From Candidatus Bathyarchaeota archaeon (GTDB lineage Archaea; Thermoproteota; Bathyarchaeia; TCS64): a DNA stretch of 11,056 nt. Positions 1 through 11,056 of this stretch are shown one piece after another. The position numbers and the translations under genes were made by a program. Numbering within the stretch: position 1 is the stretch's first letter; the number at the start of each line of letters is the position of its first letter. Below the pieces are notes generated by a model. That model saw only the letters and a list, made by a program, of their open reading frames with translations, ran no database searches and was not told the origin of the DNA. The DNA lies in the NCBI GenBank assembly GCA_016934355.1, contig JAFGTA010000013.1:1-11056 (forward strand). Reading direction: 5' to 3'.

Positions 1-349
1 TGACCCCGAGGCGGCGTATGTTATGCTTGTCCATGAGCCTCATGGCGTCCATCAGCTTCATGTCAGGCTCCACTATCTGAAGAGGCGACGACATGATGGA
101 CCTTGCGTTGTATCCCTTACGAGACCAGCCGTCCGCGACTACCCTCGTGACGATGTCCCTCTCGGTTACGATGCCAACGGGTCTGCCCTTGCTGTTAATG
201 ACGATGATGGCGCCCACCCTCTGATCGCGCATAACCCTCGCAAGCTCGGTCACGTCTGTGTCCTCACTCACCGATATGACTGGGCTCGACATCGCTTCCC
301 TTACGAGTATCTTCGAAGTGATCTCTAGGCTCACAGGCACCCCTCTCAT
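1..349 (-). CDS. CBS-domain pair protein, partial (C-terminus beyond window)
   Basis: The minus-strand frame opens with ATG at 349 (MRGVPVSLEITSKILVREAM) and stays open to the window edge, about 116 codons. The first CBS motif is complete: REAMSSPVISVSEDTDV, then RVGAIIVINSKGRPVGIVTERDIV. A second begins with RSIMSSPLQIVEPDMKLMDA and reaches KHNIRRLGV at the edge. This is the usual tandem (Bateman) layout. In this family the pair binds adenosine nucleotides or similar ligands and acts as a sensor, alone or fused to another domain; what follows cannot be seen. In-frame GTGs at 340 and 334 are alternative starts. The ATG fits leaderless transcription from the TATA-like box at 367-374. The upstream zinc-ribbon gene points the same way and ends 56 bases earlier, so some co-transcription is possible. 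Confidence 0.9.
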   Translation of the reverse strand, partial: MRGVPVSLEITSKILVREAMSSPVISVSEDTDVTELARVMRDQRVGAIIVINSKGRPVGIVTERDIVTRVVADGWSRKGYNARSIMSSPLQIVEPDMKLMDAMRLMDKHNIRRLGV

Positions 350-366
350 TGACTAACAGGGATCAA

Positions 367-374
367 TATAAAAA
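367..374 (-). promoter_or_regulatory. TATA box for the CBS-domain gene
   Basis: On the minus strand this reads TTTTTATA. Its centre lies about 21 bases before the ATG at 349, a spacing consistent with a leaderless or nearly leaderless archaeal transcript. Confidence 0.5.
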
Positions 375-405
375 CATCATGAACCTAGGGCACAGGGGTT
401 CGGCC

Positions 406-756
406 CTACGACTCAGTCAGAACCTCGTACAGCGACCCGCATTCGCTGCAGCTGATCGTCTGGCAGATGCCGGTAGCCAGCCTATCCGCGTGTATCCACG
501 TACCGCAGTCCCTGCATTTCAGTAGATACCCTTTCACCGCGTCGCCGCCCAGTGACTGCAGCGTCACCTTCTGCGCGTTTATGAAATGAGTCTCCAAGGT
601 GGGCCGTTTGATCCCAAGCCTCGACGCCTTCAACCTGATGGCGTTCGACGTCCTCGCCGGGAACTCCAGCGTTATCTCGTCGAAAGACCTTGTCGACGTG
701 TATAGCTCCCTGAGCCTCTGCACTTCACTGTCCGTCCACTCTCGCACTCTCGCCAT
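406..756 (-). CDS. Myb/SANT-like helix-turn-helix plus zinc-ribbon protein
   Basis: This 116-residue protein has two visible parts. Residues 7-51 (EWTDSEVQRLRELY, then SFDEITLEF, then ARTSNAIRLKASRLGIKR) have the tryptophan-led three-helix look of Myb/SANT or GcrA-like DNA-binding domains, with a basic last helix. Residues 81-106 hold CxxC (81, 84) and CxxC (103, 106), with an extra Cys98, a zinc-ribbon arrangement. It is probably a DNA-binding regulator, but no target is evident. The ATG at 756 has a Shine-Dalgarno-like AGAGGAT at 770-764, 7 bases upstream. That implies a leadered mRNA, unlike the leaderless genes nearby. I see no good TATA box close enough to give a short leader, so transcription may begin at 975 and run through the structured RNA. 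The exact family is not recognised. Confidence 0.82.
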   Translation of the reverse strand: MARVREWTDSEVQRLRELYTSTRSFDEITLEFPARTSNAIRLKASRLGIKRPTLETHFINAQKVTLQSLGGDAVKGYLLKCRDCGTWIHADRLATGICQTISCSECGSLYEVLTES

Positions 757-784
757 TATCAGTATCCTCTAATCGTTAAGCATT

Positions 785-975
785 TGTAGCGGGGAGCATT
801 TCGGGGAAGCCCCATTCCGTGCCGGACCTTATCGTTTCGACCCAGTCCACTGGCGCGGCGACCGCATGCGTCGAGGCTCGTTCAGGCAAACCCGAACTTG
901 GGACACAAACCCTGAGCCGCTAGTGGGTTGGGCAACTGGGTTTACACCCATCCCCCCGGGTGAACCCCCGCTACA
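785..975 (-). ncRNA. Unidentified structured RNA or structured 5' leader
   Basis: Read on the minus strand, the first ten bases (975-966, TGTAGCGGGG) pair perfectly with the last ten (794-785, CCCCGCTACA). Inside I find: a 5-bp hairpin with a GUAA (GNRA) tetraloop at 950-937; a three-way junction closed by GGCTC/GAGCC (918-914 with 879-875) holding a GGG/CCC hairpin (912-900) and a 7-bp hairpin (897-880); then hairpins at 873-859 (CGAC/GTCG), 853-842 (CCAG/CTGG), 840-832 (TCG/CGA) and 813-803 (GGGG/CCCC). The 7-bp hairpin contains a G-U pair that would be an A-C mismatch in the opposite strand, and the tetraloop is GNRA only on this strand, so minus is preferred. A TATA box at 995-1005 is about 26 bases from 975. 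It lacks the conserved SRP helix 8 and RNase P core motifs I looked for. It may be free-standing, or the leader of the 406-756 gene. Confidence 0.6.
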
Positions 976-994
976 GCATCACATTGGCTGGGTA

Positions 995-1005
995 GATTAT
1001 AATAT
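995..1005 (-). promoter_or_regulatory. TATA box ahead of the structured RNA
   Basis: On the minus strand this is ATATTATAATC, centred near 1000-1001. Archaeal TATA boxes sit about 26 bases before the transcription start, which would fall at or next to 975, exactly where the terminal helix of the RNA begins. Confidence 0.55.
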
Positions 1006-1021
1006 GGTTCTGTTGCATGAA

Positions 1022-1073
1022 TGAGTCACGCGGGCACGGTTTCCCGGGCAGCCCTTAATAGTTTTTTGACTCA
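1022..1073. repeat. Imperfect nested inverted repeat in the intergenic region
   Basis: TGAGTCA (1022-1028) is perfectly inverted as TGACTCA (1067-1073), and GGGC (1032-1035) as GCCC (1051-1054) inside it. The palindrome CCCGGG lies at 1043-1048. A T6 run (1062-1067) is in the right-hand part. A second short repeat, TGTAA/TTACA, lies at 1078-1093. They may be operators or chance. Apart from these and the promoter at 1149-1158 I see nothing convincing between 1006 and 1201. Confidence 0.25.
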
Positions 1074-1148
1074 ACAATGTAAAGAATGTTACACCATACC
1101 GCGACAACCATGAATTTAGTCAGGGATGGTAAAACGGGGGGAACACCC

Positions 1149-1158
1149 CTTAAAAAAC
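1149..1158 (+). promoter_or_regulatory. TATA box for the PAC2 gene
   Basis: CCTTAAAAAA followed by CTTAAC, with a C-rich stretch just upstream. It predicts a start near 1180 and a leader of about 20 bases before the ATG at 1202. Confidence 0.45.
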
Positions 1159-1201
1159 TTAACACGAAACCCAAAACCCTACAGTCACGCCCTCGCCATA
1201 C

Positions 1202-2014
1202 ATGAGCTCAAAGCGGCTCACTCTGATAAACGAAAGGTTTAATGCAAATCCCATTCACGATATGCTGAATCTGATGGAAGTCCACCGCATCGAACAGCCC
1301 AAGCTGAAAGAGCCGACGATGATCGCAGCGTGGCCCGGCATGGGCTACCTCGCCAAGATATCCGCCGACTACCTCAGGCGCAGGCTCAAGGCGACACTCT
1401 TCGCCGAGATCATCTACTACCACAACGTTCTCATATACAACAACAGCAAGGCCGAGCTCGCGCCCATAAAGCACAAGCTCTACGCCTGCCCAGAGAAGGA
1501 CCTCGTTATCTGCGTAGGCGACGCGCAGCCCTCTATCCCGGAGGAGTCCATAAGGCTCGCCGACGCCATAGCCGACGTCGCTGTGGAGCTGGGCGTGAAG
1601 AGGATATTCACAATGGCTGCCTTCCCTAACGACGTCTACGAGGAGCCCAAGGTGTACGGCATATACACGGATGATTCTCTGAGGCCGGTGCTGGAGGATG
1701 CGGGGATCACAATGATAGAGGCTGAGGGCGCGGTGAACGGCCTAAACGGGGTCATGATAGGCGTGGCCAAGCTCAAGGGCATCGAGGGGGTGTGCCTCAT
1801 GGGGGACATCACCTACGCCAACGTCCCGCAGCACCTCTCCTCAAAAGCCGTGCTCGAGAAGCTTTCCAAGCTGCTGGACCTGGAGATAGACACCGAGCAG
1901 CTCAGGATCAGAGCAGGCAAGATAGACGCCTCCATAAAGCGGCGGCTCGACATCTACGAGGAGGAGGAAGACATGGATTTTCCCGAGGAGAAAAAGCTGG
2001 GGTACATTAGCTAA
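1202..2014 (+). CDS. PAC2-family protein (proteasome assembly chaperone homologue)
   Basis: The 270-residue product has the PAC2 signature: hydrophobic strand plus WPGMG at residues 44-48, then AKISADYLRRRLKA, a central VICVGDAQPSIP strand, and RIFTMAAFPND. Archaeal members of this family (PbaA/PbaB types) help assemble the 20S proteasome or act as ATP-independent chaperones; which role applies here is inferred from family only. The C-terminus is a strongly acidic helix (EEEEDMDFPEE) ending LGYIS. The terminal tyrosine resembles, but does not match, the HbYX docking tail, because it is third from the end rather than second. The first 20-25 residues precede the typical domain start, so Met21 (1262) or Met25 (1274) are alternatives. 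The ATG at 1202 suits the TATA box at 1149-1158. No proteasome subunit gene is in the window. Confidence 0.85.
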   Translation: MSSKRLTLINERFNANPIHDMLNLMEVHRIEQPKLKEPTMIAAWPGMGYLAKISADYLRRRLKATLFAEIIYYHNVLIYNNSKAELAPIKHKLYACPEKDLVICVGDAQPSIPEESIRLADAIADVAVELGVKRIFTMAAFPNDVYEEPKVYGIYTDDSLRPVLEDAGITMIEAEGAVNGLNGVMIGVAKLKGIEGVCLMGDITYANVPQHLSSKAVLEKLSKLLDLEIDTEQLRIRAGKIDASIKRRLDIYEEEEDMDFPEEKKLGYIS

Positions 2015-2016
2015 CC

Positions 2017-2024
2017 CTTTATAG
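2017..2024 (+). promoter_or_regulatory. TATA box for the small membrane protein
   Basis: CTTTATAG directly after the PAC2 stop codon. The predicted start near 2047 would leave a leader of about 20 bases before the TTG at 2067. Confidence 0.4.
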
Positions 2025-2066
2025 AGGCGCAGGTAATATGAGTTAAACCCGCGGGATGAACTACGG

Positions 2067-2342
2067 TTGAAAACTTCGGAGCAGATATACTGGATAAAGG
2101 TCGTCGGGGCGCTGGTCACGGGCGGAGTATGCACTTATCTTCAGAGATCCCTCGGGCTGCAGGGCCACATCGCCTTGATGGCGGGCACGACTCTCTACAT
2201 CGCTCTCTCCGAGGGGCTCGCGATGATAACCAAGGTCGACCGTAACAGGACCATCAAGATAGGCATCGGGGCGTTTCTGTTCCTGTGGATACTGGTCTGG
2301 GTCCTGCTGAACACCCTGTTCACCCATAATAACCTCGGGTGA
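2067..2342 (+). CDS. Small three-helix membrane protein, function unknown
   Basis: This 91-residue protein has three hydrophobic segments, near residues 10-27, 33-53 and 63-86, separated by a polar turn (KVDRNRTIK) between the second and third. The opening (EQIYWIKVVGALVTGG) and the last helix (FLFLWILVWVLLNTLF) resemble a common class of short archaeal membrane proteins. A relation to the EMC6-like family is conceivable from size and topology but I cannot establish it. The start is TTG. The nearest upstream ATG (2056) is in another frame and stops after four codons, and an in-frame TAA at 2034 leaves no better start. The stop is only 7 bases from the stop of the convergent gene at 2350. Confidence 0.72.
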   Translation: MKTSEQIYWIKVVGALVTGGVCTYLQRSLGLQGHIALMAGTTLYIALSEGLAMITKVDRNRTIKIGIGAFLFLWILVWVLLNTLFTHNNLG

Positions 2343-2349
2343 GCTGTAG

Positions 2350-2730
2350 CTATTTCTCGGAGTTCACCTTGAACTGCATCAGGTCGGACCACGCGGCGAA
2401 GTAACCGCTGTCCCAGTTGGTCCTCACAGGGGAAGAGGAGAAGTCCTTGAACTCCTGCCTGTACTCCTTCATCTTCTCCGGTGTGAACTGGTTCTTGTTC
2501 AGAAAGTCGCGCTCGTCCCCGGACCGCACTGTCAGTAGCAGCCCCTCCAGCGCGTTCAAGTACCCGGCCCTGTACTCCTCGTCCGAGAAGTTTCGGCCCT
2601 TGACGTCCTCCAGGGACCTCTCGGCGTCGCTGAACTTTCTTTCGAGCAGGTTACTGATGAACTCGGCTACGGCCTCACGGGTCTTGCCAGTCACCATCAG
2701 CCCTCTTGTGTTGTTAGATGTCTTCGTCAC
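2350..2730 (-). CDS. Hypothetical charged protein, overlapping the end of radA
   Basis: The 126-residue soluble protein is rich in charged residues and probably mostly helical. It ends in an aromatic segment (NWDSGYFAAWSDLMQFKV) that looks like the most conserved part. I do not recognise the family. The start taken here is GTG at 2730, 8 bases after a GAGAGG Shine-Dalgarno-like stretch inside radA, giving a 17-base overlap with the radA end. The alternative is ATG at 2697, which removes the overlap but has a purine tract very close to it. Either way it is tightly coupled to radA and should be translated from the same transcript. A link to recombination is only guilt by association. There is no cysteine cluster, signal peptide or membrane segment. 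Confidence 0.75.
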   Translation of the reverse strand: MTKTSNNTRGLMVTGKTREAVAEFISNLLERKFSDAERSLEDVKGRNFSDEEYRAGYLNALEGLLLTVRSGDERDFLNKNQFTPEKMKEYRQEFKDFSSSPVRTNWDSGYFAAWSDLMQFKVNSEK

Positions 2731-3715
2731 TCTCTATTCCTCTCTCCGTTATCCTCATCGGGACCTCGCCCTCCGGGAGCGCTGGGCTCGCGGTGAGCTT
2801 GGCTATCCTCATGTTGTTCCTCCCCTTGCGGAGGAATATCCTGCTGTGGCTCATGTGCCCAAGTATGTGGCCGCCCACGGGCGCCACCGCCTTGCTGAAG
2901 AACGCGTCCGGGCTCGCCATCACCTGGTTCGTGATCACAGTCGCCGTGTTGAACGCCCTGCTCAGCCTCATAAGCTTGTGCAGGTGCTTGTTGAGCTGCT
3001 GCTGTCGGGGCGCAAGCATCTCCCTGCCTAGGTACTCGCTCCTGAAGTGGCTCATGACGCTGTCGATTATGATGAGCCTGATGTTGTTCTCCTTGATGAC
3101 CTCGTCCGCGTTCTCTAGAAGCACTGTCTGATGGTTCGAGGTGTACGCCTCGGCGTAGATCACGCCCTTTAGCACGTCGTCCGGCTTGATGCCGAACCTT
3201 GGGGCTATCTGCATGACCCTCTCGGGTCGGAAGGTGGCCTCCGTATCTATGTAGAGGACGCTGCCGTTCAGACCCCCTTGGGCCTCACCGAGCTGAACCG
3301 TGACGCAGAGCTGGTGGCACATCTGGCTCTTCCCCGACCCGAACTCGCCGTAGAACTCCGTGAGGCTCTGGGTCTCGATGCCGCCGCCGAGGAGCCTGTC
3401 CATGCTTGAGCAGCCTGTGGTGAGCTTCCTGACGTTCTTCCTCAGCTCTACGAGCTCGTCTCCCCTGACGAAGGTGATGGCCATGCTCTTGCGGGCGGCT
3501 TCGATGACCTTCTCGGCCATGGGTTCCCCGATCCCTGCTTCGACGAGCTCGGCGACGGCCGCTGTGCCTAGGGACTCCACGGTCTTGAACCCGATCTCTT
3601 TGAGTTTGGCGACTGTTGCCGGCCCGATGCCTGGGAGATCCTCTAAGGTCTGGTATTTTGCCTTAAAGTACTCCATGTCTTCGGACATCGGGGGTTCACC
3701 GTCTGGTTGCTTCAT
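2714..3715 (-). CDS. radA: DNA repair and recombination protein RadA
   Basis: RadA is the archaeal RecA/Rad51 recombinase. It forms ATP-dependent filaments on single-stranded DNA and drives strand exchange in homologous repair. The 333 residues carry, in order: a helix-hairpin-helix domain (LEDLPGIGPATVAKLKEIGF, about 24-43); the linker polymerisation region (FVRGDEL, 82-88, matching FxxA/G forms in archaeal RadA); Walker A GEFGSGKSQ (123-131); Walker B LIIID (214-218); and the C-terminal PVGGHILGH region (279-287). No intein interrupts it. The length is near the family norm of about 320, with an extra start of about 10 residues; Met10 (3688) or Met14 are alternatives. The ATG at 3715 suits leaderless transcription from the TATA box at 3735-3742. 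The hypothetical gene at 2350-2730 follows with an overlap. Confidence 0.98.
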   Translation of the reverse strand: MKQPDGEPPMSEDMEYFKAKYQTLEDLPGIGPATVAKLKEIGFKTVESLGTAAVAELVEAGIGEPMAEKVIEAARKSMAITFVRGDELVELRKNVRKLTTGCSSMDRLLGGGIETQSLTEFYGEFGSGKSQMCHQLCVTVQLGEAQGGLNGSVLYIDTEATFRPERVMQIAPRFGIKPDDVLKGVIYAEAYTSNHQTVLLENADEVIKENNIRLIIIDSVMSHFRSEYLGREMLAPRQQQLNKHLHKLMRLSRAFNTATVITNQVMASPDAFFSKAVAPVGGHILGHMSHSRIFLRKGRNNMRIAKLTASPALPEGEVPMRITERGIESDEDI

Positions 3716-3734
3716 ACTGTATTCTCTAGGGGTG

Positions 3735-3742
3735 TTTAAAAA
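3735..3742 (-). promoter_or_regulatory. TATA box for radA
   Basis: On the minus strand TTTTTAAA, followed by CACCCC. Its centre is about 23 bases from the ATG at 3715, so the mRNA probably starts at or very near the codon. It lies in the 40-base gap after the zinc-ribbon gene, giving radA its own promoter. Confidence 0.5.
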
Positions 3743-3755
3743 CTCGGCGAGGCTG

Positions 3756-3950
3756 CTACTCCTCTTCCTCGAGCTCCAGGATCAGTGTGCCCTCGTACCC
3801 GCAGTCTTCGCAATGGTACATCTGAGGCAGTATGCCGTAGCTTTCCTTGATCTTCACTTTATGGCTTCTGCAGACTGGGCAGAAAACGGGTTTCGGGGTC
3901 CTGTGTGTCACCTTGAAGCGGGTGTCTTTCAGGCCCTTGAGCCCGGGCAA
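3756..3950 (-). CDS. Small zinc-ribbon protein
   Basis: The 64-residue protein has a basic start, then CPVC at 24-27 and CEDC at 47-50, joined by a short strand-rich segment (KVKIKESYGILPQMYH), and an acidic tail (LELEEEE). This is a minimal C2C2 zinc ribbon as found in small archaeal proteins linked with transcription or translation; no specific function can be named. The start is TTG at 3950, two bases after the stop of the aIF1 gene. The codons that end aIF1 contain GAGGTC (3964-3959), a good Shine-Dalgarno sequence 8-9 bases from the TTG, so translation is probably coupled. A GTG at 3911 is a weaker alternative that would still keep both cysteine pairs. Confidence 0.85.
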   Translation of the reverse strand: MPGLKGLKDTRFKVTHRTPKPVFCPVCRSHKVKIKESYGILPQMYHCEDCGYEGTLILELEEEE

Positions 3951-3952
3951 AA

Positions 3953-4261
3953 CTACTGGACCTCTATGTTCTCGTTGGGGAACCCCATTGTGACCAGTGT
4001 GTTGTACACTGTCTCTCTATGGTCCCCCATCAGTAGAACCTGCTCGTTTTTCGCTGTTCCGCCGCAGGCGCACTTGGCCTTCAGCTCAGAGGCTAGCTTG
4101 CTCAGTGACACGCTCCCAGAATCGATGCCGTCGATGACGGTCCATTTTTTTCCCCATTTGCGTGTCTCTAAACGAATTCTTATCCGCTGCTGCTCCTTAC
4201 TCATCTCCTCGCATACGCAGAGGTCTTTCGGGAGTCCGCATACGGGACAAATTTCCGCCAT
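3953..4261 (-). CDS. Translation initiation factor aIF1 (SUI1 family)
   Basis: This 102-residue protein belongs to the SUI1/eIF1 family. aIF1 binds the small ribosomal subunit near the P site and helps start-codon selection. An N-terminal zinc knuckle (CPVCGLPKDLCVC) is followed by the SUI1 fold: RIRIRLETRKWGKKWTVIDG, then the core LASELKAKCACGGTAK, and the closing MGDHRETVYNTLVTMGF. Length and layout match typical archaeal aIF1. The frame extends back to a GTG at 4270, but the ATG at 4261 is preferred. It begins the conserved MAEICPVCG, and a TATA-like box at 4289-4295 predicts a transcript start near 4266, leaving almost no leader. The downstream zinc-ribbon gene is separated by two bases and probably shares the transcript. 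Confidence 0.95.
   Translation of the reverse strand: MAEICPVCGLPKDLCVCEEMSKEQQRIRIRLETRKWGKKWTVIDGIDSGSVSLSKLASELKAKCACGGTAKNEQVLLMGDHRETVYNTLVTMGFPNENIEVQ
3959..3964 (-). promoter_or_regulatory. Shine-Dalgarno sequence for the zinc-ribbon gene
   Basis: GAGGTC on the minus strand, embedded in the last codons of aIF1 (Glu-Val). It is 8-9 bases before TTG 3950 and is the main support for that unusual start. Confidence 0.5.
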
Positions 4262-4288
4262 TATCAACACTGTATCGATGCGATCCTT

Positions 4289-4295
4289 CTAAAAG
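4289..4295 (-). promoter_or_regulatory. TATA-like box for aIF1
   Basis: CTTTTAG on the minus strand, about 31 bases before ATG 4261. It predicts a start about 5 bases ahead of that codon. Confidence 0.45.
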
Positions 4296-4303
4296 CTTTG
4301 CGT

Positions 4304-4321
4304 AAGAAAGGCGGGTTTCTT
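4304..4321 (-). terminator. Possible weak terminator of the ACT-domain gene
   Basis: The inverted repeat AAGAAA/TTTCTT surrounds a GC-rich loop 5 bases past the stop of the ACT gene and is followed on the minus strand by a pyrimidine-rich stretch. It is short and AT-rich in the stem, so it may be chance. Confidence 0.25.
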
Positions 4322-4325
4322 CATG

Positions 4326-4931
4326 TTATGTGTAGTTTTGGAGTAAGGCGAACGCCTTCAGGGCGTCTAGACCGTCCAGTATTATGATGGTGTTGGTGCT
4401 GCAGCTGATGAACTCCACGATGTTGATGTTGCGGCTCGCCAGCAACTGGGTGATGAACGCGACGAACCCCGGGGTGTCCTCCACACGGGGCGGACTCAGC
4501 AGTATCAGGGCGACGAGGTTGCTCTGGACCTTCACAGGCTCCTCCGGCTTCCCCTTCATGGTGGTCTGGTCCACCACGTAGACGTACTGATCGGTAAGGT
4601 GCGCCGTAACGATGTGTGGATTGTCGAGCCTCATGGGGGAAATCACTACAGCGATCTTGTCCTGGAGCCTCACCTTGGACTCCTTGAGGATGCTCTGCAC
4701 AGCCTCCTCCCGTAGCTTCCTGTCTGAGGCTATCTCATCAGACACCCTGATGACCGCCGCCTTCACCGCCTCGATGCTCCCCTCGCCAAGCTCCTCCTGG
4801 AGTATACGGGCGAGGGCGCTGTAGTTGACGATCTTCATGTTGAGGGCGTCTAGGAGGCTGGGCCTCATCTGGATGGTCTCGCGGACCAGCTGGGCCACGC
4901 TCTTTGTCCTATCTGAGCTTTCTAATACCAT
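4326..4931 (-). CDS. ACT-domain protein with N-terminal helical (possible HTH) region
   Basis: The 201-residue product has a helical N-terminal half (SVAQLVRETIQMRPSLLDAL, then NYSALARILQEEL) that could be a winged-helix-like DNA-binding or oligomerisation unit. The C-terminal half has an ACT-type pattern, including LILLSPPRVEDTPGFVAFI, LASRNINIVEF and a final strand TIIILDGLDALKAFALL. ACT domains bind amino acids and control enzymes or regulators. The frame runs upstream to 4988, but the start is taken as ATG 4931 because the TATA box at 4956-4963 predicts initiation at about 4934. That leaves the upper 19 codons in promoter sequence. It is divergent from argG, so an amino-acid-responsive regulatory role is reasonable but unproven. 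Confidence 0.8.
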   Translation of the reverse strand: MVLESSDRTKSVAQLVRETIQMRPSLLDALNMKIVNYSALARILQEELGEGSIEAVKAAVIRVSDEIASDRKLREEAVQSILKESKVRLQDKIAVVISPMRLDNPHIVTAHLTDQYVYVVDQTTMKGKPEEPVKVQSNLVALILLSPPRVEDTPGFVAFITQLLASRNINIVEFISCSTNTIIILDGLDALKAFALLQNYT

Positions 4932-4955
4932 ATTTGTAACACTTATGTCGCAAGG

Positions 4956-4963
4956 TATAAAAG
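4956..4963. promoter_or_regulatory. Shared divergent TATA box (argG and ACT-domain gene)
   Basis: TATAAAAG on the plus strand and CTTTTATA on the minus. From its centre (about 4960), 26 bases leftward is 4934, next to the ACT gene's ATG at 4931. The same distance rightward is 4986, which gives argG a 24-base leader containing AAGGAG. No second TATA box of similar quality is obvious in this gap. Confidence 0.55.
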
Positions 4964-4993
4964 CTTGCCTCGTTCTTGATTGCCTCATCCTAT

Positions 4994-4999
4994 AAGGAG
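4994..4999 (+). promoter_or_regulatory. Shine-Dalgarno sequence for argG
   Basis: AAGGAG, 10 bases before ATG 5010. This favours 5010 over the in-frame TTG at 4980, which would lie upstream of the predicted transcript start. Confidence 0.65.
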
Positions 5000-5009
5000 T
5001 ATAGATGCA

Positions 5010-6269
5010 ATGCCTAAAGACAAGGTCGTTCTAGCCTACTCGGGTGGACTGGACACGTCCATGATGGTAAAGTGGCTCCAGATGGAGTACAAGATGGATG
5101 TCATCACCTGCAACCTCGACGTAGGACAGGGCAAGGAGCGGAAAGGCATCGAGGACAAGGCCTGGAAGCTCGGTGCAATCAACCACTACACGTTCGACGC
5201 CAAGGAGGAGTTCGCCAACGGGTACATATTCCCCGCGATAAAGGCGAACGCCCTCTACATGGGAACATACCCGGTTAGCAGCAGCCTCAGCAGGCCCCTC
5301 ATCGCCAGCAAGCTGGTGGAGGTAGCCGAGATGGAGGACGCTCACGCGGTAGCCCACGGCTGCACCGGTAAGGGTAACGATCAGGTTAGGTTCGACCTAA
5401 CAATCAAGGCGCTTAACCCCAAGCTCAAGATCATCGCTCCCGTGAGGGAGTGGAAGTTCGACAGGAAGAGCCAGATAGAGTGGGCCAAGGACCACGACGT
5501 CCCTGTGCCCGTCACGGCCGACAGTCCGTACAGCATAGACGAGAACCTGTGGGGCCGCAGCATCGAGGGCGGGATGCTGGAGCACCCCGACAAGATGGTG
5601 CCCGGCGACATCTGGGACTGGACGGTGGACGTTGAGAACGCCCCGAACGAGCCCGACTACGTAAAGATCGGGTTCCATAAGGGCGTCCCGACGACCCTCG
5701 AAGGCGTTGATTACAGGCCCCACGAGCTCATCCAGAAGCTCAAGCTGCTGGGCGGCAAGCACGGCATAGGCAGGATCGAGCACATGGAGGACCGCATCGT
5801 CGGCCTCAAGACACGTGAGACCTACGAGGTCCCGGCAGCCGAGATACTGCTGAACGCTCATCAGGACCTTGAGAAGATGGTGCTGACGAGGCACCAGAAG
5901 GCATTCAAGTTCCAGGTGGACCAGATGTGGGCTACGGTGGTGTATCAGGGCCTCTGGGTTGACCCGTTCAAGCAGAACCTTGACGCCTTCATCGACAGCA
6001 CACAGGAGAACGTAACCGGCATGGTGACGATGAAGCTGTTCAAGGGGTCAGCCAAGCCCGTGAGCAGGGAGAGCCCGTTCAGCCTCTACGACTACAACCT
6101 GGCGAGCTTCGACATAAACACCCACTACGACCAGGGCGACGCCATCGGCTTCATCAACCTCTGGGGGCTGCCCAGCGTCTCCGCGTGGAACCTGAAGAGG
6201 ACCGTGGCGGAGGAGGGCATCAAGGAGATGGGGAAGAAGGTCGTCCCCGTCCCCACCGGCGACTCCTAG
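5010..6269 (+). CDS. argG: Argininosuccinate synthase
   Basis: ArgG joins citrulline and aspartate with ATP to make argininosuccinate, the second-last step of arginine synthesis. The 419 residues open with MPKDKVVLAYSGGLDTS, containing the SGGLDTS nucleotide-binding P-loop. They continue with NLDVGQGKE, then SSSLSRPLIASKLVEVA and AHGCTGKGNDQVRFD, all family hallmarks. Later segments such as YSIDENLWGRSIEGG and GRIEHMEDRIVGLKTRE are also typical, and the length is normal (about 400). The start at 5010 follows AAGGAG by 10 bases; the frame's earlier TTG at 4980 is rejected. No other arginine gene, such as argH, is adjacent. The divergent ACT-domain gene shares its promoter region and might respond to an amino acid. 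T-rich sequence at 6275-6279 and 6289-6296 follows the stop. Confidence 0.98.
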   Translation: MPKDKVVLAYSGGLDTSMMVKWLQMEYKMDVITCNLDVGQGKERKGIEDKAWKLGAINHYTFDAKEEFANGYIFPAIKANALYMGTYPVSSSLSRPLIASKLVEVAEMEDAHAVAHGCTGKGNDQVRFDLTIKALNPKLKIIAPVREWKFDRKSQIEWAKDHDVPVPVTADSPYSIDENLWGRSIEGGMLEHPDKMVPGDIWDWTVDVENAPNEPDYVKIGFHKGVPTTLEGVDYRPHELIQKLKLLGGKHGIGRIEHMEDRIVGLKTRETYEVPAAEILLNAHQDLEKMVLTRHQKAFKFQVDQMWATVVYQGLWVDPFKQNLDAFIDSTQENVTGMVTMKLFKGSAKPVSRESPFSLYDYNLASFDINTHYDQGDAIGFINLWGLPSVSAWNLKRTVAEEGIKEMGKKVVPVPTGDS

Positions 6270-6288
6270 CCCAGTTTTTCTCGGTTGT

Positions 6289-6296
6289 ATTTTTAT
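6289..6296 (+). promoter_or_regulatory. TATA-like box for the winged-helix/hjc pair
   Basis: TATTTTTAT directly after the argG T-tract. It predicts a start near 6318 and a leader of about 20 bases before TTG 6340. The same T-rich stretch (6275-6296) may end argG transcription. Confidence 0.4.
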
Positions 6297-6328
6297 TTCA
6301 TTACAGTTATCCTTCTAGCAGGTAGCCC

Positions 6329-6333
6329 GAGGT
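6329..6333 (+). promoter_or_regulatory. Shine-Dalgarno sequence for the winged-helix gene
   Basis: GAGGT, 6 bases before TTG 6340; it decides this non-ATG start. Confidence 0.5.
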
Positions 6334-6339
6334 CATACT

Positions 6340-6666
6340 TTGTCCCGTGAAGAGTCACTCATAGAGATACTTGAGAGGGCGCTGCCGCTGCCCCCTAAGA
6401 TCATCGTGGGGTACAACAAGCTGGAGCGCGACTTCACCAGCGGAGACGTGGCGAAGGTGTGCGACGTCAGCAGGAGCACCGCCAAGTTCTACGTCAACAA
6501 GATGGTGAACCTGCGGCTGATAACCAAGGTGCCCCACAAGCGGATGTACCAGAAGTACGCCAACGCCAACAAGTTCAGCGACTGGATGAAGGACCTCATG
6601 AGGTTCGCCCTGGAGCCTCTGGAGACCGGCTCCCTGCAGCTGCCCGAGGAGCCCGAAGAGGAATGA
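6340..6666 (+). CDS. Winged-helix DNA-binding protein upstream of hjc
   Basis: The 108-residue protein has a predicted winged-helix core at about residues 30-70. A helix-turn-helix (FTSGDVAKVCDVSRSTAKFY) is followed by a recognition-type helix and wing (VNKMVNLRLITKVPHKRMYQK). A C-terminal helix (FSDWMKDLMRF) and an acidic tail (PEEPEEE) complete it. It is probably a small transcription regulator or a DNA-processing accessory; there is no enzyme motif. The start is TTG, supported by GAGGT 6 bases before. Its stop overlaps the ATG of hjc in the sequence ATGA, so the two are translationally coupled. A regulator in the same unit as a resolvase may regulate it or act with it on DNA. I do not know a named family. 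Confidence 0.8.
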   Translation: MSREESLIEILERALPLPPKIIVGYNKLERDFTSGDVAKVCDVSRSTAKFYVNKMVNLRLITKVPHKRMYQKYANANKFSDWMKDLMRFALEPLETGSLQLPEEPEEE

Positions 6667-7142
6667 GCCTCCGCGACATCGCCGCCCCCAAGAAGAAGCC
6701 CAGATCGCGGTACACGCGGCAACTCACCGCGAAAGAGGTGCGCGCCATGAAGAAGCGAGGCTACGACGCGGAGCGGGAGCTGGTGCACATGCTGAGGGAC
6801 GTGGGCTACGACGCCATTCGGGTCCCAGTGAGCGCGCCAAGCAAGGAGCCTCTACCCGACGTGTTCGCCGTCAAGGACGACTCGATCCTCGCGGTGGAGG
6901 TGAAGGCGCAGGTCAGGTACGCCTACTACAAGCGTGACCAGGTGTCCAAGCTGTTAGAGTTCCTACACATGCACAGGATATACCCGAGGCGATACGCTGT
7001 GCTGGCGGCGAAGTTCAAGTACAAGGGCTGGTGGTTCGACGTCGCCGAGAAGCTGGACGACTACATGCTGAAGATAGACAAGGGGCTCACGTGGAATGAG
7101 CTGTTGGCTAAAATCTCGTCTAAGCCCGTGCCTATTGTTTAA
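6663..7142 (+). CDS. hjc: Holliday junction resolvase Hjc
   Basis: Hjc cuts four-way DNA junctions left by recombination or stalled forks. The 159 residues contain the catalytic set of the archaeal resolvase nuclease fold: Glu37 in RGYDAEREL, Asp66 in LPDVFAV, and Glu79 and Lys81 in AVEVKA. These align with Glu9, Asp33, Glu46 and Lys48 as I recall them from Pyrococcus Hjc. The KRDQVSKLLEF helix and the YKGWWFDVAEKL C-terminal segment also match. The protein has about 30 extra N-terminal residues, very basic (KKKPRSRYTRQLTAKE), and about 10 extra residues between Glu37 and Lys81 (including SAPSKEP). The start is ATG 6663, overlapping the winged-helix stop by 4 bases. RadA lies 3 kb away on the other strand; there is no evidence that they are co-transcribed. 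Confidence 0.9.
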   Translation: MSLRDIAAPKKKPRSRYTRQLTAKEVRAMKKRGYDAERELVHMLRDVGYDAIRVPVSAPSKEPLPDVFAVKDDSILAVEVKAQVRYAYYKRDQVSKLLEFLHMHRIYPRRYAVLAAKFKYKGWWFDVAEKLDDYMLKIDKGLTWNELLAKISSKPVPIV

Positions 7143-7145
7143 ATA
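7138..7145 (+). promoter_or_regulatory. TATA box for the Lon-type protease
   Basis: TTTAAATA, overlapping the hjc stop codon. It predicts initiation near 7168, about 21 bases before ATG 7189. The sequence AGTGAT just before that ATG is a weak Shine-Dalgarno match. Confidence 0.5.
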
Positions 7146-7188
7146 AGCTCTCGACCAATCAATCAACAGAATATTCTAAGTGATAGCC

Positions 7189-9573
7189 ATGGTGAAAGAG
7201 CTAGATTACACTCAAACGAGGAGGAAGTGCCCGCCTGACTTTATAGCATGCGAGAGCACTAGCGACCTTGAGCCCCTCATCGAGATCATCGGTCAGGACA
7301 GGGCTGTGAAGGCGCTTCGCTTCGGGCTGGACATCGATGAGGAGGGCTTCAACATCTACGTCGCCGGGATGCCGGGGACCGGGAAGAAAACAGCCATCGT
7401 GACGTTCCTTGAGCAGAGAGCCAAGGACATGCCAGTGCCCCCTGATTGGTGCTACGTCTGGAACTTCGACGACGACGAGAAGCCGAACGCCATGAGCCTC
7501 CCCCCTGGGAAGGGCTCCGAGTTCAGGGACGACATGGCGAAGTTCGTCGACAACATGAGGAAGGCGCTAATGTCAGCGTTCGAGAGCGAGGACTACGCCA
7601 CGCGCCGAGAGGAGACGGTCAAACAGTACGAGGATAAGAAGGCTGAGCTGATGAAGCAGCTCAACCAGAAGTCTATGGAGGCGGGGTTCGTGCTGCAGAG
7701 GAGCCAGATTGGGATGCTCATCGTGCCCGTAATAAATGGGCAGCTCATCAACGAGCAGCAGTTCAGCCTTCTGCCTCAGAACGTCAAGGACGAGATACAG
7801 GAGAGGAGGAAGCGACTTCAGGACGATCTGAGGAGCGCGTTCCGGCAGTTCAGGGACGTCGACAGGGATGCGGAGACCGCGGTGGAGTCCTTCAACAAGG
7901 AGGTCGCCACCTACGCGATGGAACACCTGTTGCAGACGCTCAAGGAGAAGTACGGCGGCATCGAGGAGTGCGACGCGTACATGAACGCAGTGAGGGATGA
8001 CATACTCGCCAACCTCGACGCGATCATCGGGTCACAGAAGCAGCCTGAGTCGCCGTTCCCGTTCCTCCAGAGCCAGACTCCTGACCCCGTGGAGAGGTAC
8101 AAGGTAAACCTCATCGTGGACAACAGCAAGCTGGAGGGGGCCCCTGTGATAATGGAGATGAACCCCAGCCATAACCGCCTCTTCGGCGCGACGGAGAAGG
8201 AGGCGAGGTTCGGCGCCCTCGTGACAAACTATACGATGATACGGTCGGGCAGCGCCCACGAGGCAAACGGCGGGTTCCTCGTCATCCCAGTGGAGGAGCT
8301 GGCCCGCAACCCTGGCAGCTACGAGTCGCTGAAGAGGACAATCGTGAACAAGAAGCTGGAGATAGAGGAGCTGGCGGAGAAGATGGGGTTCGTAACCACG
8401 AGGAGCCTGCGCCCAGAGCCCATACCCTTCGACGCCAAGGTCGTACTCGTCGGAGACTCCCAGATATATTACATGCTTTACCAGCTGGACCCCGAGTTCA
8501 AGAAGATATTCAAGGTGAAAGCCGAGTTCGACACGACCATGGAAAGAGAGCCCGAGAACATCCAGCAGTACGCCAAGTTCATGTGCACCCTCGTAAACAA
8601 GGAGGGGCTCAGGCACCTAGACTCGTCAGGCATCTCAGCTGTAATCGAGTTCAGCAGCAGGCTGGCCTCCGACCAGAAGAAGCTCAGCACCCAGTTTGCC
8701 GAGGTAAGCGACATCATCCGTGAGGCCAACTTCTACGCTAAGGAGGCAGGCAGCGAAGTGATAACGGAGCTGCATGTCAAACAGGCCATCGAGGCAAAGG
8801 TGTACCGGAGCAACCTCATCGAGGAGAAGCTTGAGGAGATGATCGAGCGAGGCACCATCCTCGTGGACACGGGCGGCGAGAAGGTTGGGCAGGTGAACGG
8901 CCTCGCCGTCATGGGCATCGGCGACTACATGTTCGGTAAGCCCAGCAGGATCACAGCCAGCGTCGGAGTCGGCAAGGAAGGCATCCTCGACATCGAGAGG
9001 CAGGCCGAGATGGGTGGACCCACCCACACCAAGGGCGTCCACATACTCACCGGGTTCCTGACAAACAGGTACGCCAAGAGTTACCCCCTCAGCGTCACGG
9101 CGCGGCTCACATTCGAGCAGAACTACAGCGGCGTAGACGGAGACAGCGCAAGCAGCACCGAGACCTACACGTTGCTCTCTGCGCTTTCAGGTGTCCCCAT
9201 AAAGCAGTGCTTCGCCGTCACAGGCAGTGTAAACCAGAAGGGCGAGGTTCAGGCCATCGGGGGCGTCAACCACAAGATCGAGGGCTTCTACGATCTCTGT
9301 AAGTTCAGGGGTCTGGACGGCAGCCACGGCGTCGTCATACCGGAGAGCAACGTCAAGAACCTGATGCTCAGGGAGGACGTGGTGGAAGCGATAAAGGACG
9401 GCAAGTTTCACATATACCCCGTGAATTCCATCGACGAGGGCATCGAGGTGCTCACAGGCGTCCCAGCGGGTGAGCTTCAGGGCGATGGCACATACATCGA
9501 GGGTACCATCAACTATCTGGTCCAGAAAAAGCTCGACGGAATGGCCCAGATAGCCAAGGAGTACCCCCGGTAG
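7189..9573 (+). CDS. Soluble Lon-type AAA+ protease (AAA_32/LonC-like)
   Basis: This 794-residue protein fuses an AAA ATPase to a Lon (S16) protease. Walker A is AGMPGTGKKT (59-68). A long charged, partly coiled-coil insertion follows (about 130-290), then the AAA core with GGFLVIPVEEL as a degenerate Walker B and VVLVGDSQ around sensor 1. The C-terminal protease domain holds the catalytic Ser653 (GDSASS) and Lys696 (VNHKIEGF), 43 residues apart as in other Lon proteases. I see no membrane segment, unlike the archaeal LonB type anchored in the membrane. The layout is that of the COG1067 group, which also occurs in bacteria. It probably degrades damaged or regulatory proteins in the cytoplasm. 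The frame opens at GTG 7180, but ATG 7189 fits the TATA spacing. The T-rich 9582-9587 may end the message. Confidence 0.93.
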   Translation: MVKELDYTQTRRKCPPDFIACESTSDLEPLIEIIGQDRAVKALRFGLDIDEEGFNIYVAGMPGTGKKTAIVTFLEQRAKDMPVPPDWCYVWNFDDDEKPNAMSLPPGKGSEFRDDMAKFVDNMRKALMSAFESEDYATRREETVKQYEDKKAELMKQLNQKSMEAGFVLQRSQIGMLIVPVINGQLINEQQFSLLPQNVKDEIQERRKRLQDDLRSAFRQFRDVDRDAETAVESFNKEVATYAMEHLLQTLKEKYGGIEECDAYMNAVRDDILANLDAIIGSQKQPESPFPFLQSQTPDPVERYKVNLIVDNSKLEGAPVIMEMNPSHNRLFGATEKEARFGALVTNYTMIRSGSAHEANGGFLVIPVEELARNPGSYESLKRTIVNKKLEIEELAEKMGFVTTRSLRPEPIPFDAKVVLVGDSQIYYMLYQLDPEFKKIFKVKAEFDTTMEREPENIQQYAKFMCTLVNKEGLRHLDSSGISAVIEFSSRLASDQKKLSTQFAEVSDIIREANFYAKEAGSEVITELHVKQAIEAKVYRSNLIEEKLEEMIERGTILVDTGGEKVGQVNGLAVMGIGDYMFGKPSRITASVGVGKEGILDIERQAEMGGPTHTKGVHILTGFLTNRYAKSYPLSVTARLTFEQNYSGVDGDSASSTETYTLLSALSGVPIKQCFAVTGSVNQKGEVQAIGGVNHKIEGFYDLCKFRGLDGSHGVVIPESNVKNLMLREDVVEAIKDGKFHIYPVNSIDEGIEVLTGVPAGELQGDGTYIEGTINYLVQKKLDGMAQIAKEYPR

Positions 9574-9580
9574 ACGCCAC

Positions 9581-9590
9581 ATTTTTTATC
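9581..9590 (+). promoter_or_regulatory. T-tract: Lon-gene terminator and TATA box of the thioredoxin reductase gene
   Basis: ATTTTTTATC. The T6 run, 8 bases past the Lon stop, can end transcription. TTTTTTAT is also a reasonable TATA box, with a start near 9613, just ahead of ATG 9621. Confidence 0.4.
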
Positions 9591-9620
9591 TACCCTCCGC
9601 TTTTCTTCAGGATCAGTGCA

Positions 9621-10532
9621 ATGACCGAGGAGACCTACGACGTCATCATAGTGGGCGGGGGCCCCGCAGGGCTCACCGCCGCCATCTACACCGCCAGACA
9701 TAACCTCAAGACTCTGATACTTGAGGGGGCGAAGCTAGGCGGCAAGGCACTGGAGGCCCACTGGATCGAGAACTACCCCGGCTTTCCCGAGGGGATCAGC
9801 GGGCCGGACCTTATGGGCAAGTTCGTGGAGCAGGTGGAGCACTTCAAGCCTGAGGTCAAGTCCGAGACCGTGATCGGTGTGAGCGACTTCGGCGGCCTCA
9901 AGATGGTGTCCACCAGGCAGGGCTTCCACCAGGCCAAGGCGGTCATCATAGCCACCGGTGTGAGCCGTAAGCAGCTGAGCGTCCCCGGCGAGAACGAGCT
10001 CAAGGGCAGGGGCGTCAGCTACTGCGCCGTCTGCGACGGGCCGTTCTTCAGGGACAAGGCGGTCGCCATCGTGGGCGGAGGCCACGAGGCGGTTCACGAC
10101 GCCATGGTGCTCTCGGAGACCGCCTCCAAGGTCTACGCGATACCGGGGAAGAGCGGGTACAGCGAGGAGTACGACGACATACAGATACTCGTGGATGACC
10201 CCGCGATAGACATCATTCAGGGGCGCGATGTCAAGGAGATATGCGGCAAGGACTTCGTGGACTGCCTGAGGCTGGACAACGGCAGGAAGATCGACGTAGA
10301 AGGCGTGTTCCTGATACTGGAGCACGTGGCCACCTCCAGCATCCTCAAGGAGGCGGGCATAGAGACCGACCGCGGTGGATGCATCATCGTAGACGAGAAC
10401 GGGGAGACCAACATCAAGGGCATCTACGCGGCTGGGGACTGCAGCTGCAAGGGGATGCAGATAGTCACCGCCACGGGGATGGGCGCCAAGGCCGCGCTGG
10501 CCGCGATGAAGTACGTCAAGACCCTGAAGTGA
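9621..10532 (+). CDS. trxB: Thioredoxin reductase-like flavoprotein
   Basis: The product belongs to the FAD-dependent thioredoxin reductase family, which passes reducing equivalents through flavin and a disulfide to a thioredoxin-type protein. It is 303 residues, close to the usual 310. FAD motif VGGGPAGL is at 11-18, ENYPGFPEGI at 50-59, IIATG at 109-113, the redox disulfide CAVCDG at 135-140, and C-terminal GIYAAGD at 267-273. In the pyridine-nucleotide domain GGGHEA (152-157) is present. But where NADPH enzymes have the arginine-rich HRRxxxR, this protein has AIPGKSG (173-179), so NADPH specificity is doubtful. Archaeal relatives without this motif include a deazaflavin (F420)-dependent enzyme. 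A thioredoxin-like gene follows after 7 bases, and a TATA box at 9581-9590 starts the pair. Confidence 0.93.
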   Translation: MTEETYDVIIVGGGPAGLTAAIYTARHNLKTLILEGAKLGGKALEAHWIENYPGFPEGISGPDLMGKFVEQVEHFKPEVKSETVIGVSDFGGLKMVSTRQGFHQAKAVIIATGVSRKQLSVPGENELKGRGVSYCAVCDGPFFRDKAVAIVGGGHEAVHDAMVLSETASKVYAIPGKSGYSEEYDDIQILVDDPAIDIIQGRDVKEICGKDFVDCLRLDNGRKIDVEGVFLILEHVATSSILKEAGIETDRGGCIIVDENGETNIKGIYAAGDCSCKGMQIVTATGMGAKAALAAMKYVKTLK

Positions 10533-10539
10533 GCGCGGC

Positions 10540-10794
10540 ATGGTCAAGGTAGAGCTCTTCTATTCCCCTGTCTGCCCCCACTGCCCCAGCGCGCGTAGGC
10601 TGGTCTCCGATGTGGCTGAGAGGTATCCCCACGTTGAGTTCATCGAGGTCAACACGTACACCGAGGAGGGCATCGAGCGGGGTATGAGTATGCAGGTGAT
10701 GGCGGTGCCCACCGTCGCGGTGGACGACGAGATAAGGCTAGTCGGGTGGCCTTTCGAGGAGAGGGACCTGACGACCCTCATCGACTCTCGATAG
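10540..10794 (+). CDS. Small thioredoxin/glutaredoxin-like protein (CPHC)
   Basis: The 84-residue protein is a minimal thioredoxin fold: strand VKVELFYSP, active site CPHC (12-15), then a helix, strand HVEFIEVN, and the cis-proline motif VPT (56-58). It resembles the short archaeal redox proteins that behave as thioredoxins despite a glutaredoxin-like length. The start ATG 10540 is 7 bases after the stop of the reductase gene, so the two form an operon and the protein is the likely disulfide substrate of that enzyme. No extra cysteines are present. The T6 run at 10800-10805 after the stop may end the message. Confidence 0.92.
   Translation: MVKVELFYSPVCPHCPSARRLVSDVAERYPHVEFIEVNTYTEEGIERGMSMQVMAVPTVAVDDEIRLVGWPFEERDLTTLIDSR

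Positions 10795-11056
<262 letters not shown>

Follow-up and report, generated by a model that had tools for sequence, protein, structure and literature searches.

A structured RNA of Bathyarchaeia, probably a new cis-regulatory 5' leader of a transcription factor gene

Autogenous leaders, such as the ribosomal-protein leaders, are structured RNAs that stand before the gene of a nucleic-acid-binding protein. PMC7247131 has ribosomal leaders as its subject. In archaea, few structured leader RNAs appear to be known; in PMC2864571, crcB is placed in both bacteria and archaea, and TPP is given as the one earlier class shared by the domains.

The element described here lies in a Candidatus Bathyarchaeota archaeon (assembly GCA_016934355.1, contig JAFGTA010000013.1, positions 1 to 11,056), and this whole stretch of 11,056 nucleotides is referred to as the window. 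Its features are collected in Table 1. The element fairly likely serves as the structured 5' leader in the mRNA of a 116-aa HTH-ribbon protein and is transcribed from the TATA box at 996-1005. Its fold is conserved and lies on the minus strand, and the element stands before the gene, with which it shares a promoter; that both are carried on one mRNA is what we infer. As judged from sequence, it is probably a new structured 5' leader, cis-regulatory in kind, of a Bathyarchaeia transcription factor; the regulatory part of this reading is uncertain and draws on place and conservation.

Table 1. Features of the element, its promoter region and the gene that follows (window coordinates)
Feature	Positions	Strand	Details and evidence
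Structured RNA element (leader), about 191 nt	785-975	minus	Presumed transcript start near 975; fold, conservation in L001-L006, covariation with 12 genomes
P1 helix, 5' strand UGUAGCGGGG	966-975	minus	Partner 785-794; 3 of 11 counted pairs (one internal G-U included) changed on both sides
P1 helix, 3' strand CCCCGCUACA	785-794	minus	Partner 966-975
Hairpin GUUCGGGUUUGCCUGAAC	880-897	minus	Both sides changed in 5 of 9 stem pairs; letters next to the loop almost invariant
Predicted arm GGACU...GGUCC	824-848	minus	Four longer elements (window, L001-L003); predicted fold and sequences by eye
HTH-ribbon gene, 116 aa: GcrA-like helix-turn-helix and CxxC...CxxC ribbon	406-756	minus	Pfam, Foldseek, homologue alignment
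GAGG, likely Shine-Dalgarno of the HTH-ribbon gene	766-769	minus	9 nt before ATG; inferred from sequence
TATA-like box ATATTATAAT	996-1005	minus	Kept in 6 relatives; A+T-rich box in 18 aligned promoters
Promoter motif TGCAACAGAA beside the TATA box	1008-1017	minus	Upstream regions of 16 of 22 orthologues (one as CGCAACAGAG), fragment L067, window
Upstream conserved block, boxes of TGTCNCA / TGNNACATTCTTNACA / TGNGNCAAA type	1052-1109	minus	Alignment of 18 upstream regions

The ends of the element form the perfect 10-bp terminal helix (P1) that the original prediction had claimed, both in the sequence and in the predicted fold. The inverted repeat TGTAGCGGGG (785-794) and CCCCGCTACA (966-975) makes up the outer helix of the minus-strand fold. 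This fold has an energy of -89 kcal/mol (z -2.65), and 2 of 200 shuffles were equally stable. Since folding of the plus strand is almost as favourable (z -2.48; 2 of 200 shuffles), fold energy alone cannot choose the strand. In 12 leaders, each folded with 30 nt of coding sequence, the pairing probability of P1 was 0.74-1.00. Two length classes of the element were observed, namely about 191-196 nt (window and the near relatives L001-L003) and 153-155 nt (L004-L006). The loop of the hairpin at 880-897 has the consensus (G/A)GGU(U/A)NG(C/U)CU in the 12 genomes, with GGGUUNGCCU as the near-invariant loop. The GNRA loops did not fare as well, and by eye they are not conserved across L001-L003. The GUAA loop at 937-950 reads CUGA, CUGA and CAAU in L001, L002 and L003, respectively, and the GAAA near 835-838 sits in a UCG-AAA-CGA hairpin, which is UCG-AUA-CGA in L002 and UCC-CACG-GGA in L003.

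The strand is decided by the comparison of relatives. As the original prediction had proposed, relatives were aligned for covariation, and compensatory changes were found in the terminal helix and in one hairpin over 12 genomes (window, L001-L006, L051, L052, L057, L064 and L066). The alignment, hand-cut and gapless, covers the 11 pairs of P1 and the 9 of the hairpin, 240 cells in all, of which 92.9% are paired, as against 40.8-50.8% in slid versions. Read as minus-strand RNA, 223 of the 240 cells pair, and read as plus-strand RNA, 192. In the minus-strand reading of the 12 genomes, G-U cells outnumber A-C cells 37 to 6, which places the RNA on the minus strand. Thus, the claim of a structured RNA on this strand holds through covariation and G-U counts, not through energy.

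Changes on both sides were observed in 8 of the 20 pairs (three in P1, five in the hairpin). The cells changed on both sides number 23, with a shuffle mean of 9.1, and the covariation score is 0.379 against 0.215 in shuffles; neither value was reached in 500 shuffles, which overstate the significance because the 12 rows are kin and hand-picked. Two related measures are unremarkable in the same set: the 8 doubly changed pairs compare with a shuffle mean of 5.7 (30 of 500 shuffles), and the further pair types number 21, against 20.5 in shuffles (274 of 500). Two cells midway along P1 are unpaired in L005, and L057 and L066 each carry a mismatch below the hairpin loop. The compensatory change in the 12 genomes goes beyond what chance would give.

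Over the 18 leaders that have the promoter motif, the mean fold z is -2.95, with the window at -2.20 in that set. Leaders of another shape upstream of the same gene, L054, L055 and L067, also fold better than shuffles (z -2.48, -3.88 and -3.87); the leader of L059 has z -0.96, and that of L053 (z +2.20) is less stable than all 150 shuffles. When the P1 region was examined as a duplex, at most 13 of 200 shuffles were as good in 14 of the 18 leaders, the failures being L053 (155 of 200), L054 (53), L057 (39) and L058 (37). The cognate duplexes average -36.05 and the non-cognate ones -30.83 (sd 8.6), so that the cognate strands are moderately better only.

The gene context of the element was followed from both of its sides. 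The PAC2 gene (1202-2014, plus strand), which adjoins the element, has relatives in 7 loci, all from Candidatus Bathyarchaeota, and the element is at the equivalent place in 6 of them (L001-L006). The seventh, L007, has no element, and its genome is without a match to the HTH-ribbon protein. A search of 256 genomes of the class with the alignment of this protein gave matches in 35 genomes at E<=1e-3 and in 22 at E<2e-18. These 22 orthologues are L045-L066, with L045-L050 being the places of L001-L006. The element, defined by P1 and loop, is present in 11 of the 22, namely the six near relatives and L051, L052, L057, L064 and L066; in L051-L066 the P1 strands and the loop were picked by eye, aided by duplex predictions. 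In L053, L054, L058 and L055 the promoter motif is present and the leader has a different shape; L060, L063, L061, L062 and L065 are without the motif, and the upstream region of L056 is cut by a contig end. The leader of L059 (genome G252) is a short 3' remnant of the element with the promoter motif kept, apparently through an internal loss. Among 398 genomes of the phylum, the protein was matched in four at E<=1e-8, one of these being a 54-residue match in G566.

The distance from the end of the element to the ATG of the HTH-ribbon gene, which has the same orientation, is 24-36 nt in all 12 genomes of the covariation set (28 nt in the window); within L001-L006, a distance of 22-34 nt was also obtained, varying with the ATG chosen. 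A free-standing RNA gene with its own promoter, as originally predicted, is not upheld, for the same-strand gene 406-756 starts 28 nt downstream. Because this gene follows so closely, on the same strand and in 12 of 12, the promoter is most simply that of the gene and the RNA its 5' leader. Within the 60 nt that precede the ATG, no T-run exceeds 3 in the 12 leaders; thus, there is no usual archaeal U-run terminator between RNA and gene.

The TATA-like box is centred some 25 nt ahead of base 975 (26 had been claimed), and by position this agrees with the claim that transcript start and helix start coincide. In the motif-bearing upstream regions, TGCAACA(G/T)A adjoins the A+T-rich box. In 7 of 8 genomes, motif and TATA box together have a single exact match; in the eighth, G237, they are found at the gene with 3 mismatches, and three other 3-mismatch places exist. 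The block at 1052-1109 keeps a near-constant distance to the TATA box, with gaps of one or two bases over 18 rows, and it is a possible operator. Its 15-mer core pattern is no commoner than the reversed control in 10 genomes, and no regulon is therefore seen. A second A+T-rich box (the CTATTAAGGG region) lies about 50 nt upstream of the TATA-like box, within the conserved promoter region. A second transcript start might lie upstream, and a promoter might also lie inside the element.

Copies elsewhere were sought by three routes, namely the 17-mer of the hairpin, the promoter motif and the model R1. Five genomes carry the 17-mer in exact form and G003 carries it with one letter changed, in every case once and at the element's place; it is single per genome in 6 of 7, and in G003 a further place matches with 2 mismatches. 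When up to 2 mismatches were allowed over 256 genomes, places were found in 81, mostly chance-like, and a reversed-pattern control also matched many genomes. Thirty of these 17-mer loci were examined; the TATA string was in range in one (L040) and the PAC2 promoter string in none. With strict filters, R1 gave 6 matches in the 256 genomes, each directly upstream of the HTH-ribbon gene. With lax filters it gave 13 places up to E 1 in 23 genomes. Six of them are the strong ones, and one, in G251, lies at the gene (E 0.36); the remaining six are weak, lie elsewhere (the best being G237:C15 with E 0.0156) and are taken as chance. No convincing second copy was thus found, a result that holds for near relatives only, because R1 missed the known elements of L052, L057, L064 and L066.

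The strongest competitor of the leader reading is a free-standing small RNA gene that uses the same promoter, is cut or ended at P1 and acts in trans, perhaps as a partner of the adjacent HTH-ribbon protein. P1 begins at the expected transcript start and varies unusually little in its letters GUAG...CUAC, as if the ends were held or recognised; the promoter region is strongly conserved at constant spacing, and the sequence of the hairpin loop is conserved beyond its pairing. This alternative is nevertheless unlikely in view of the constant place before one gene, the lack of a T-run and, at the sensitivity of the 17-mer, motif and R1 searches, the absence of a second copy.

The protein encoded after the leader matches the Pfam family GcrA at E 4e-4, which is under the family cut-off, and in a sequence search of the PDB it found GcrA 5yiu at E 0.029. 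Its AlphaFold2 model has a mean pLDDT of 74.4, with about 87-92 in residues 11-50. Foldseek aligned it with the DNA-binding domain of GcrA, 5yiv (probability 0.96, E 0.96, TM 0.85 of target), and the superposition gave 1.3 A over 44 columns at 34% identity. There are 138 homologues at E<=1e-3, and Cys81, Cys84, Cys103 and Cys106 are invariant in 40 aligned ones. The protein is read as a DNA-binding HTH with a zinc ribbon, in which the cysteines would bind the metal. A viral origin of the protein was considered and rejected, as none of the 196 pattern stretches found in viral contigs codes for a relative.

The leader might work in the following manner. Transcription would start near 975, promoted from the TATA box at 996-1005, and the leader would fold into arms closed by P1, including the hairpin with the loop GGGUUNGCCU. 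Translation would begin at 756 behind the GAGG at 766-769, P1 being followed after 15 nt by the ribosome-binding site. The hairpin loop and the junction would be bound by a protein, for which the encoded HTH-ribbon protein or some general RNA-binding protein is the likeliest candidate, or by a small ligand, and this binding would alter either the access of ribosomes or the stability of the mRNA. The block at 1052-1109 would serve as the DNA site of a regulator, perhaps of the same HTH-ribbon protein.

The predicted folds lend no support to a simple switch in which the ribosome-binding site becomes hidden. In the 12 leaders with 30 nt of coding sequence, this site is unpaired with probability 0.33-0.81 and the AUG with 0.05-1.00, in no common pattern, and a GUAG able to compete for the 3' strand of P1 is present in 5 of 12 spacers, plus L059. 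Because the ribosome-binding region is half open without a common pattern and the GUAG is found in 5 of 12, a binding site in the leader is proposed, with a protein likelier than a metabolite. A bolder suggestion, which we put forward tentatively and hold to be less likely than not, is that of a new archaeal regulatory RNA class, confined to Bathyarchaeia as sampled, in which a multi-arm leader with the near-invariant GGGUUNGCCU loop would either sense a ligand or bind the HTH-ribbon protein of its own gene.

A ligand-binding riboswitch of a new class controlling the transcription factor gene is a further alternative. The junction-like fold closed by P1, the near-invariant loop letters and the place in a 5' leader would all suit it. 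It is, however, very improbable, as no pairing alternative with the ribosome-binding site is common to all, the GUAG competitor is restricted to the spacers mentioned, the gene context is single and no Rfam class matches. The original prediction had not been able to match the element to SRP RNA, RNase P RNA or a known riboswitch, and a search of 4227 Rfam families agrees: the window gave nothing at E<=5 and 18 related loci gave nothing at E<=1, and at E<=10 over 757-1200 there were two weak matches, far below cut-offs and both outside the element. The RNA is also not described among the literature matches listed, which is not proof of its absence from print.

Other identities were rejected as well. 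RNase P RNA and SRP RNA give no covariance-model match to the element, and their true copies are on other contigs of most genomes (above cut-off in 5 of 8 and 7 of 8, respectively); hence, it is neither of the two. The H/ACA guide, once entertained as a weak alternative, finds no support, as the ACA after the terminal helix is not kept (e.g., in L001, L002 and L064); the letters after CUAC vary, with CUACGCC in L001 and L002 and CUACGCUU in L064. No tRNA or tmRNA is present in the window. An upstream peptide is rejected since the frames inside the element differ between relatives: the ATG frames have 40 aa in the window (from 951), 15 aa in L001 and L002 and 22 aa in L003, and a TTG frame is open in the window, L002 and L003 and broken in L001. 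A mobile element (MITE), or another DNA inverted repeat devoid of RNA function, which the perfect 10-bp terminal repeats and the GCAT adjoining both of their ends could suggest, is scarcely credible. Compensatory change, with G-U plentiful on one strand, largely refutes it, and the element has an orthologous position in 6 relatives and one copy per genome.

The neighbouring genes gave some observations of their own. The listed start of the PAC2 gene, 1202, is probably too far upstream; an in-frame ATG is present at 1262, the PAC2 matches in L004-L006 begin at residue 25, and the conserved AAACGAAAGGTTTAATGC at 1228-1245 looks like the promoter of this gene. Downstream of the HTH-ribbon gene and on the same strand is a CBS-domain gene (2-349, minus), with a TATA-like stretch of its own around 364-374 that, judged by eye, is also present in relatives.

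Within a large uncultured lineage, the element shows compensatory evolution, keeps to one gene context and has a conserved promoter. As it points to one small regulator gene, it offers a concrete entry to RNA-based control in Bathyarchaeia. If the encoded protein did bind the leader, the same small regulator would recognise a DNA operator as well as the RNA leader of its own gene.

Among the known systems, the archaeal RNase P RNA (RF00373) and SRP RNA (RF01857) have, like the element, a terminal helix that joins the RNA ends, whereas the element matches neither model. With the archaeal TPP and crcB/fluoride riboswitches it shares the 5' leader position, but has no Rfam match to either. Protein-binding (autogenous) leaders, such as those of ribosomal proteins, likewise place a structured RNA of the same strand directly before the gene of a nucleic-acid-binding protein; in the present case, in contrast, the gene encodes a GcrA-like HTH-ribbon protein, whose binding to the leader is a proposal.
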